Source: Bacillota bacterium (lineage in GTDB: Bacteria; Bacillota; SHA-98; Ch115; JABLXJ01). From it: a DNA stretch of 32,847 nucleotides. Location: positions 1-32,847 of the forward strand of contig DUMQ01000054.1 of NCBI GenBank assembly GCA_012839815.1, read 5' to 3'. The translations under genes and the position numbers were made by a program. The notes beneath the pieces were generated by a model. That model was given only the letters and a program-made list of their open reading frames with translations, was not told the origin of the DNA and did not search any database. Shown here piece by piece: positions 5,718 through 32,847 of the stretch (position 1 is its first letter; every line of letters begins with the position of its first letter).

Positions 5718-5758
5718 GAGCTGCGCTCCTTTATCTACCTGATTCTCAGCTATCTGCT

Positions 5759-5808
5759 TAAGTTAGTGCGCAGCGGAGCCAAAGATTTATGCGATGCGCA
5801 CTAACTTA
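5759..5808. repeat. Perfect 14-bp inverted repeat, minimal copy of the palindromic family
   Basis: TAAGTTAGTGCGCA (5759-5772) and TGCGCACTAACTTA (5795-5808) are exact reverse complements around a 22-base loop. The same arm bounds the large element at 9741-9971 and adjoins the core hairpin at 24353-24393. Here the arms stand without the inner modules. The element lies between the 3' end of the penicillin-binding protein gene and the start of galT, so it could act as a hairpin in either transcript. Confidence 0.7.
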
Positions 5809-5953
5809 CTTGACTTGCGATTTTTCATGTCGTGTCTCCCGACTTCTAAACTTTAACTTCTGGCAGGAGGGGCCTTTTTATGCATCCGACCAGCCGGGAA
5901 TCGGGTTTTTCAAAAGATCTTTCGAAGATTACATTACCTTGTTGGGAAAGATC

Positions 5954-8093: not shown

Positions 8094-8149
8094 CACCCCT
8101 CCGGCATGACCTGGTCGTTTTCCCGCCGGTCCACCCCGACAGAGGGGTG
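8094..8149. repeat. 8-bp inverted repeat with nested small stems
   Basis: CACCCCTC (8094-8101) pairs with GAGGGGTG (8142-8149). Short complementary pieces such as GACC/GGTC lie within the loop. The preceding 20 bases hold the direct repeat AAGTATCTT twice. The position, between divergent genes, could be a leader structure or an operator. No known riboswitch was recognised. Confidence 0.35.
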
Positions 8150-8160
8150 CAGGATGCCTT

Positions 8161-8223
8161 AGAGATTACGGAGCGACCCGCTTCCTGGCCGCGTCCGCTG
8201 GGCGAAGAGAGGCGCGCCCGCCC
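8161..8223 (-). repeat. Palindromic-family copy: core hairpin plus GC-rich module
   Basis: Read on the minus strand, 8161-8196 matches 9812-9847 of the large element at 32 of 36 positions. The adjoining 23 bases at 8201-8223 recur exactly, as reverse complement, at 32811-32833 at the right end of the window. This copy therefore links two otherwise separate repeat modules. It lies between the divergent PBP and phosphoglycerate mutase genes. No terminal TTAGTGCGC arm was seen at its edges. Confidence 0.65.
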
Positions 8224-8318
8224 AGCGAACGTATTCCCCTGGCGCCTGGCGGAACCTTGCTAACGGAACTTAGTATATCCATTTATCCCGCCCCGCTATA
8301 TACCCTGCTCCGGGCAGG

Positions 8319-8345
8319 CCGGCCCGGGCATGCACGCCGGGCCGG
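8319..8345. repeat. Strong GC-rich hairpin upstream of phosphoglycerate mutase
   Basis: CCGGCCCGG (8319-8327) pairs perfectly with CCGGGCCGG (8337-8345) around a nine-base loop. No U-tract follows on either strand, so a rho-independent terminator is unlikely. It sits about 185 bp before the gene and may be a 5' leader structure or a further palindromic repeat. The rest of 8060-8529 holds only the repeats listed here. The in-frame extension upstream of the gene looks non-coding. Confidence 0.5.
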
Positions 8346-8529
8346 AATAGAATTTCGCCAAAACATAACAAATTATGATCATTTCAGGAAGGATAACCGC
8401 AACCTGTATAGAATCAAAGGGCGGAGGGAAACTTCTCTTGGGCCATCGCGAAGAAACCTCTCGCACAAACCCTTCGCGGAACCATTTCGCTGTAACTTAA
8501 CGAATCAATGTAACAGGGGGCATGGTATC

Positions 8530-9735
8530 GTGATAAACATGGGAGTAATAAGCAAGCTCGCCATGAAGACGGACACCAAGATCGTCATGGTGGTCGTCGA
8601 CGGCCTCGGGGGGCTGCCTGATCCCGAGACAAACCTCACGGAGCTGGAGTCGGCCCGGAAACCCAATATTGACGCCTTGATGAAGAAGTCTGTGTGCGGG
8701 CTCATAGATCCTGTAGGCCTCGGCATAACCCCCGGGAGCGGGCCATCACACCTCGCGCTCTTCGGATACAACCCGCTCGAACATGAAATCGGGCGGGGCG
8801 TCCTCGAGGCCCTGGGCATAGGGTTTGACCTGGAGCGGACGGATGTGGCTGCGCGCGGCAACTTCTGCACCGTCGACAGCGAGGGCAGGGTCATCGACAG
8901 GCGCGCCGGGCGGATCGAGACCGAGAAGACGAAGGAGCTCTGCAAGCTCCTGGAGGATATAAAGGTTGACGGCGCAGAGGTTATCATAAAGCCGGGCAAG
9001 ATCCACAGGTTTGTTGTAATCTTCAGGGGTGAAGGCCTATCCGGCAACGTGACGGATTCGGATCCCCAGAAGGAGGGGAAATTCCCCAAGACGGTCGAGG
9101 CCCTCACGCCGGATGCTGAGAAGACCGCCCGCTGCGTGAACGAATTCATAGCTAAGGCAAAGGCCATCCTGGCGGACAAGCACCCCGCCAATATGTTGTT
9201 GCTGCGCGGGTTTGCAAAGCATCCCAACATCCCCACCATGGGCGAGATCTTCAAATTGACGCCGGCCGCGATCGCTACCTATCCAATGTACCGCGGTGTA
9301 GCGAGGCTTGTAGGCATGGATGTCATCCCGACGGGCACGACGATCGAGGACGAGTTCCGGACCCTGGAGGAGAACTACGGCCGCTATGACTTCTTCTACG
9401 TCCACGTGAAGGAGACGGACAGCTCGGGCGAGGACGGCAAATTCCAGCGCCGCGTCGAGATCATAGAGGAACTCGACAGGTCCATCCCTCGCCTTACAGC
9501 GCTCGACCCGGATGTCATAATCATAACGGGCGATCACTCGACGCCGGCGAGACTAAAGGCGCACAGCTGGCATCCCGTCCCGATCCTGCTCTACTCGAGG
9601 TGGTGCCGGCCTGACGGAATATCGAGCTTTGGTGAGCGCGAGTGCCGCCTTGGGAGCCTCGGGAGGTTCCCCAGTCTCGGCGTCATGCCGCTTGCGATGG
9701 CGAATGCGCTCAAGCTCATGAAGTACGGTGCCTAG
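8530..9735 (+). CDS. apgM: Archaeal-type cofactor-independent phosphoglycerate mutase (ApgM family)
   Basis: The product of about 400 residues belongs to the alkaline-phosphatase superfamily and should interconvert 3- and 2-phosphoglycerate. It opens with KIVMVVVDGLGGLPDPE (metal-binding Asp in VDG), followed by GITPGSGPSHLALFGYNP with the presumed active-site Ser in the GSGPSH segment. Later metal-site segments are HVKETDSSGEDGKF and ITGDHSTP. GTG 8530 has AGGGGG at 8514-8519 about ten bases before it; ATG 8539 is the alternative but is poorly spaced. Length agrees with ApgM (about 400), not with the 510-residue GpmI family. Some relatives have been proposed to act as homoserine kinases, so substrate is not fully certain. 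It is monocistronic and flanked by palindromic elements. Confidence 0.88.
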   Translation: MINMGVISKLAMKTDTKIVMVVVDGLGGLPDPETNLTELESARKPNIDALMKKSVCGLIDPVGLGITPGSGPSHLALFGYNPLEHEIGRGVLEALGIGFDLERTDVAARGNFCTVDSEGRVIDRRAGRIETEKTKELCKLLEDIKVDGAEVIIKPGKIHRFVVIFRGEGLSGNVTDSDPQKEGKFPKTVEALTPDAEKTARCVNEFIAKAKAILADKHPANMLLLRGFAKHPNIPTMGEIFKLTPAAIATYPMYRGVARLVGMDVIPTGTTIEDEFRTLEENYGRYDFFYVHVKETDSSGEDGKFQRRVEIIEELDRSIPRLTALDPDVIIITGDHSTPARLKAHSWHPVPILLYSRWCRPDGISSFGERECRLGSLGRFPSLGVMPLAMANALKLMKYGA

Positions 9736-9740
9736 GTCTA

Positions 9741-9971
9741 CTAAGTTAGTGCGCAAGAACATCTGCCCTTCTTGGCACTAACATAGGGGGTCTCGCATCT
9801 CTCCGCCCGGCGGACGCGGCCAGGGAGCAGGCCGCTCCGTAATCTCCGGCCGGGGGCTGTTAGGCCGGAGATTAAGGCCGCCTGGCGGAGAGATGCGAGA
9901 CCCCCGGCCACTGTGCGGCACCGGTAGCTGTTACCTGCGAAAGGTCGGGGTATTTTTGCGCACTAATTTAG
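9741..9971. repeat. Large multi-hairpin palindromic element
   Basis: The terminal arms CTAAGTTAGTGCGCA (9741-9755) and TGCGCACTAATTTAG (9957-9971) pair at 14 of 15 positions. Inside them a 28-bp stem (9786-9813 with 9878-9905) matches at 27 of 28. Within that stem are two side-by-side hairpins: GCGGCC (9816-9821) with GGCCGC (9830-9835), and a perfect 12-bp TAATCTCCGGCC (9840-9851) with 9863-9874. A further hairpin in the left end pairs GTTAGTGC..AAGAA with TTCTT..GCACTAAC, ending near 9783. The whole folds like a branched cloverleaf. It fills the gap between the phosphoglycerate mutase gene and cdaA. No protein is encoded. Confidence 0.8.
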
Positions 9972-24352: not shown

Positions 24353-24393
24353 GACGCGGCCAGGAGGCAGGCCGCTCCTGCGCACTAACTCAG
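24353..24393. repeat. Palindromic-family copy: core hairpin joined to terminal arm
   Basis: Bases 24353-24378 match the core hairpin of the 9741-9971 element at 24 of 26 positions (GACGCGGCCAGG..GCAGGCCGCTCC). They run directly into TGCGCACTAACTCAG (24379-24393), a variant of the terminal arm. A possible degenerate partner arm, CTAAGTTGGTGTG, lies near 24525. This copy joins two modules that are more than 100 bp apart in the large element. Confidence 0.65.
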
Positions 24394-24490
24394 CATGGGT
24401 AGCATGGGTGGGGGCAGGAGAGTGGCAGGATGCCTTATCATATGCGTGGATGGGGTGCGAGTGTACTGTGCGCGGGGCCCGGGACCGGGC

Positions 24491-32810: not shown

Positions 32811-32847
32811 GGGCGGGCGCGCCTCTCTTCGCCAGGCGCGCCCGCCC
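32811..32847. repeat. Perfect 14-bp-stem hairpin at the window edge; palindromic-family module
   Basis: GGGCGGGCGCGCCT (32811-32824) pairs exactly with AGGCGCGCCCGCCC (32834-32847) around a nine-base loop, 65 bp after guaA. Bases 32811-32833 are the exact reverse complement of 8201-8223. It might terminate the guaA transcript, but the sequence stops at the window edge so any U-tract or further modules cannot be seen. Confidence 0.65.

Follow-up and report, generated by a model that had tools for sequence, protein, structure and literature searches.

Introduction

Several families of bacterial MITEs duplicate a TA dinucleotide on insertion, among them RUP of S. pneumoniae, Correia/NEMIS and ERIC (PMC2229807, PMC10969869), and insertion of such elements into one another has been reported for BOX, RUP and SPRITE (PMC2229807, PMC10969869). 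TA duplication is the signature of IS630/Tc1-mariner transposases and has been shown in vitro for ISY100 (PMC2170065); the reference list of that paper also cites work on the preference of IS630 for the TA in CTAG (Tenzen and Ohtsubo 1991). Palindromic extragenic REPs are 20-40 bp single hairpins without long terminal repeats, tagged either with GTAG, for which a transposase is known, or with CGTC, for which none is (PMC3733652).

Here we analyse a repeat element at positions 9741-9971 of a 32,847-nucleotide stretch of DNA (the window) from a Bacillota genome of 2.80 Mb. Like RUP, Correia/NEMIS and ERIC it falls within 100-450 bp, is non-coding, intergenic and strongly folding, and has terminal inverted repeats and a TA duplication, but it differs from them in being G+C-rich, in having at its core a branched three-way junction with covariation between genera, in carrying a nested element that entered at one CTAG and was amplified with its host element, and in its frequent stem-bounded flips. 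With IS630/Tc1-mariner elements such as ISY100 (PMC2170065) it shares the TA duplication and the preference for CTAG that is cited there for IS630, but it has no transposase gene, and no such gene with these ends was found among the end places listed. A CGTC string 3' of inner hairpin 2 recalls the CGTC-tagged REPs; here, however, that string is part of the junction, the stems have another consensus and the loops other sizes, and there is no REP-associated tyrosine transposase (RAYT). The pneumococcal BOX element is likewise structured and modular, with constant ends and a variable middle, but its sequence is different, and for the element here both a duplication and empty sites can be demonstrated. 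We conclude that the element is very probably a non-autonomous DNA transposon, a MITE mobilised in trans by a TA-duplicating, CTAG-preferring transposase that was most likely of the IS630/Tc1-mariner kind.

Results

Anatomy of the element

The element is flanked by cdaA and by an apgM-type phosphoglycerate mutase gene whose stop codon is at 9733-9735. The gene order CdaA-YbbR-GlmM-GlmS of the window, together with a raiA RNA elsewhere in the genome, would fit a G+C-rich bacterium of the Bacillota. The TTG start of the mutase open reading frame (8257-9735) is probably too early, since residue 92 is the first to align with homologues in two other genomes (G002 and G003). Positions 9741-9971 form a strongly folded palindrome made up of terminal arms, a stem of 28 bp and a pair of inner hairpins, just as an earlier note on this DNA had read it, and the fold is far better than that of shuffled sequences, whether computed as RNA (-144.7 kcal/mol, z -10.5) or as DNA (-80.6, z -11.0); no shuffle was equally good in either case. 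The terminal arms span 19 nt at 9741-9759 and 9953-9971, with 89% pairing. Judged from the junction comparisons given below, the outermost letters (CTA at 9741-9743 and TAG at 9969-9971) belong to the target, leaving a palindromic, MITE-like element proper of 225 bp at 9744-9968, its core sense on the minus strand, with copies found genome-wide by blastn and by covariance model. The two copies of the duplicated TA are 9742-9743, preceded by the target C at 9741, and 9969-9970, followed by the target G at 9971.

From the outside inward, the terminal inverted repeats, recognised by arm pairing, are AGTTAGTGCGCAAGAA at 9744-9759 on the plus strand and its counterpart at 9953-9968 on the minus strand. 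The main stem, P1, pairs 9786-9813 with 9878-9905 (28 nt, 96% complementary) and encloses two hairpins read on the minus strand: hairpin 2 (9814-9836), in which GCGGCC at 9816-9821 pairs with GGCCGC at 9830-9835 and whose loop is the insertion site of a nested element in many other copies, and hairpin 1 (9837-9877), whose 15-nt arms CCGTAATCTCCGGCC and GGCCGGAGATTAAGG (9837-9851 and 9863-9877) are 93% complementary, with a conserved T.C mismatch near the base. Outside the stem, the right (P) arm at 9906-9952, on the minus strand, contains small hairpins and is conserved in other copies. The left (Q) arm at 9745-9782, on the plus strand, folds here into one more hairpin, a mimic of the terminal repeat. 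This is the hairpin that the earlier note had placed within the left end; it is real but private to the copy at 9741, which reads GGCACTAACAT where others read GGCACTCGCAT, and the consensus of the other copies lacks CACTAA, the string that makes the hairpin.

Copy number and variety behind shared ends

The family is large, and its ends are sharp (AGTTAGTGCGCA...TGCGCACTAACT). Dozens of copies appear among the blastn matches listed for the genome, and the core covariance model gives at least 54 matches. The 15-base end CTAAGTTAGTGCGCA, allowing up to 2 mismatches, matches 197 times (106 + 91) against 1 match for a reversed control, which corresponds to roughly 100 elements plus fragments. The genome thus contains far more than the few copies that would have refuted the earlier note. 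Immediately outside 129 distinct ends stands CTA in 96 cases, ATA in 7 and TTA in 3, and from position -4 outward the sequence is random; conservation inside the end pattern is partly by construction, since that pattern was used to find the ends, but the search does not account for the sharp drop in similarity beyond it. Contigs in this assembly often break at these repeats, and at least 47 of the contig ends inspected lie inside a copy.

Several interiors occur behind the same ends: the 231/232-bp form represented by the copy at 9741, a form of roughly 430 bp, a 141-bp family, and minis of 52 and 69 bp. The 141-bp family begins CTAAGTTAGTGCGCAAGAGACTGTTG and has a different interior, CTAAGTTAGTGCGCAAGAGACTGTTGACC...; one member spans L067 888-1028, and ends of others were seen in L037, L055, L079, L089, L138 and L206. 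At L209 443-466 and L202 1412-1450 two terminal repeats are fused back to back (ATAAGCTGGTGCGCACTAACTTAG), possibly as deletion remnants or excision scars. The earlier description of the family as modular is apt, one reason being that a hairpin loop of the first element houses a second one built to the same design.

The three pieces noted earlier at 5759-5808, 8161-8223 and 24353-24393 also belong here. At 5758-5809 a 22-nt spacer separates two terminal repeats, making a mini-element that is absent at the orthologous place in the sister species. At 8111-8213, on the plus strand, is a degenerate core copy (hairpin 2 and P1; cmsearch E 4.6e-4) of an older subfamily, to which a fragment in the sister species is related; 8162-8222 is 85% complementary to 9786-9846. 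At 24353-24393, on the minus strand, hairpin 2 is joined directly to one terminal repeat, with 92% identity over 26 nt; the core model scores it weakly (E 0.11). The contig ends in a further palindrome, at 32811-32847, which is related to 8187-8223. The string GCAGGATGCCTTA adjoins GAGATTACGGAGCGGCC both in this genome (8142-8195) and in the sister species, so the two species share an older subfamily of the core that has a flank of its own; places with these strings are 8142-8161 and 24418-24437 in the window, L058 near 1490, and L132.

Where do the copies lie? They are mostly intergenic, often just after stop codons; by simple and hence approximate open-reading-frame calls they occur in all gene arrangements and in both orientations. 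Near some copies are a raiA RNA (L012 862-1044), an FMN riboswitch (L007 1261-1390) and a cobalamin riboswitch (L081 1968-2240).

Target site, TA duplication and empty sites

Three independent tests place the junction after CTA. First, where flank alignments reach the junction, the sister species (G001, same genus) reads CTAG (L063, L075), ATAC (L065) or CTGA (L094), and the copy at L065 begins ATAA where G001 reads ATAC. Second, the copy at L004 interrupts a tandem repeat, and removing the element with one TA restores three units at 20-bp spacing. Third, what distinguishes the long form from the short is an additional element, AGTGTAGGTTC...ACACT, lodged in the hairpin 2 loop; 3 copies retain the vacant site, GCTCGACTAGCCGCG, and others are occupied and read GCTCGACTA[AGTGTAGG...ACACT]TAGCCGCG. 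These comparisons show that both the outer and the nested element insert at CTAG and duplicate TA, the duplication being the IS630/Tc1-mariner signature. With the boundary set at CTAAG no duplication of 2-10 bp is seen, because in targets of the CTAG type the TA is concealed within what looks like the repeat. The nested element entered at one CTAG, and the composite was then amplified.

The orthologous gap between apgM and cdaA in G001 has flanks 85-88% identical and no element, and the other orthologous places recovered in that same-genus genome are likewise empty; exact junctions are comparable at four of them, intergenic sequence having diverged elsewhere. The insertion polymorphism that the earlier note had asked for is thus present. 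The end pattern has no match in G001 or G002 and two one-mismatch matches in G003 (a different family of the same order), a background level, so that none of G001-G003 rises above background. The roughly 100 copies have thus spread recently through this genome, the sister species having none.

A REP/BIME-type repeat, moved as a single-stranded hairpin by a RAYT, would also be palindromic, intergenic, modular and high in copy number, and the earlier note had suggested looking for such an enzyme. A Y1_Tnp search found none in G000 (this genome) through G003, while control genomes gave matches; the TA duplication at CTAG is unlike the IS200/IS605 pattern, and the terminal repeats are long. With Y1 transposases absent, the element is not a REP/BIME system, and we consider movement by a RAYT barely credible. 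The ends of the element also lack the 20-40 nt hairpin with GTAG at its base, and a CGTC-tagged REP was set aside as well, the element being a branched structure of 225-430 bp rather than a single 20-40 bp hairpin with a CCA tail (PMC3733652). Also rejected were an IS110-family derivative, as neither of the two IS110 genes in this genome is flanked by these ends, and integron attC-like ends, as the R-box consensus, on reading by eye, is not matched.

The branched core across families

In the core, the stem is followed by two pairs and a T, then by hairpin 1 with a C and two pairs behind it; an A separates these from hairpin 2, after which GT leads back into the stem. G003 harbours a distinct repeat family with 36 core-model matches, and its cores adopt this three-way junction as well; G001 and G002 have one match each. 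In an alignment of 16 sequences from G000 and G003 (97% of cells pair), 14 of the 27 core pairs are changed on both sides, against a mean of 6.6 for shuffled and at most 2 for slid pairings, and the covariation score is 0.326, against 0.150 shuffled and at most 0.078 slid; the junction letters T, C, A and G are invariant and the remaining T nearly so across these copies of two genera. The core thus covaries with repeats from another family of the order, whereas the earlier note would have been refuted by a lack of covariation and of insertion polymorphism in relatives. The nested element has almost the same junction, TT replacing T, as read by inspection from its own fold, since a MAFFT alignment with the cores misaligned it. 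Under strict filters, a 300-genome sample of the phylum yielded core-model matches in this order only; a scan of named organisms with the core pattern gave only two chance matches, both in coding sequence, and plasmids, phages and IMG/VR gave none. The G003 repeats (L103, L105, L122) have outer layers repeating the same half-motifs, GGCGGCATTGATCCGAGGCC ... GCTGCGTCCGACGGGAGGAGTATCC, in a Russian-doll arrangement. A G003-type core copy also lies on a small G001 contig (G001:C30:725-808; L101, L156), through either horizontal transfer or contamination.

Could the core be a functional structured RNA, such as a cis-regulator, a protector of mRNA ends or a small RNA, with RNA selection keeping the junction and mobility secondary? 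The double-sided changes between genomes, a covariation score above phylogenetic and shifted controls, the near-invariant junction letters, the nearly identical junction of the nested element and the mostly intergenic position of copies, often just 3' of stop codons, all speak for it. We nevertheless think it improbable: the core occurs in both orientations relative to genes, its segments flip within copies, and the element showed no Rfam match at gathering scores (sub-threshold chance matches only), no intrinsic terminator and no promoter. Template switching, moreover, needs no selection to homogenise arms and invert spacers (PMC8604942; PMC8794818 for RNA hairpins) and, yielding the same compensatory changes, is an alternative cause of the covariation, which alone is therefore no proof of RNA function. 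Of the earlier alternatives, a non-autonomous mobile element or a structured RNA, the first is thus supported, given the non-coding sequence and varied interiors, and a functional RNA is improbable.

The persistence of the branched core across families that do not share these ends, together with the nearly unchanged junction of nested copies, might instead suggest that the element spreads as folded single-stranded DNA, its junction recognised by an unknown recombinase and its terminal repeats incidental. But the 141-bp family and the 52-bp and 69-bp minis, which have an unrelated core or none, share the ends and are inserted, so it is the ends, not the core, that move, and we regard spread through the junction as very improbable.

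Flipped segments and template switching

Stem-bounded segments are inverted in about 26-31% of copies. By approximate counts, the core is oriented one way relative to the outer arms in 56 cases and the other way in 20, and the core of the nested element divides 48 to 22. The entire nested element, by contrast, has only short and imperfect repeats at its ends and divides 67 to 4. In the complete copies L076 and L065 the flip is visible on both sides. Among copies in this genome the main stem carries double compensated changes, which fit template switching between inverted repeats; only main-stem counts were used, because lenient scans of the small hairpins double-count palindromes and catch chance hairpins. 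Some flips deep in the long form could be assembly chimeras, since many contigs end within copies, and flips in complete copies with unique flanking sequence are safer.

Discussion

The element is short and non-coding, with near-identical terminal inverted repeats, high copy number, sharp boundaries, a TA target-site duplication at CTAG and empty orthologous sites, all of which are hallmarks of a MITE. What moves it? On the MITE reading, a TA-duplicating transposase supplied in trans would carry the element into CTAG. It weighs against this reading that the cores in G003 lack these ends and that no transposase with these ends appears among the ends listed and the open reading frames sampled. 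Among 100 listed end places (of about 197) there is no opposed pair 0.8-3 kb apart, and eight open reading frames beside four atypical single ends are housekeeping genes.

Once inserted, copies may be reshaped by template switching during replication between the arms of a stem, which would keep the palindromes perfect and flip the segments between them. The three-way-junction core would stay recognisable across two families either through selection or through descent combined with template-switch repair. We also entertain, as a rather unlikely reading, that selection acts on the core itself, a parasite defined by its structure, which nests in its own kind and persists across families while ends, stems and sequence turn over, its folded DNA or RNA being recognised by a host or transposon factor. 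For the host, most likely, the element has no role beyond occasional effects on mRNA ends.

The repeats at 9741-9971 and elsewhere in this genome thus form a new and structurally unusual MITE family, though not a new category, set apart by its flips, by a branched core kept in more than one family, and by a nested insertion at a single CTAG whose composite product was then amplified. Small gene-less repeats are usually described one genome at a time, whereas here one lineage offers about 100 recent copies, a sister species with empty sites, and a distant family in which other letters spell the same fold. This makes it testable whether the folds of palindromes are kept by selection or by replication template switching, for which the flips could serve as an internal clock, and whether the core of a MITE can outlive its transposase by changing its ends.
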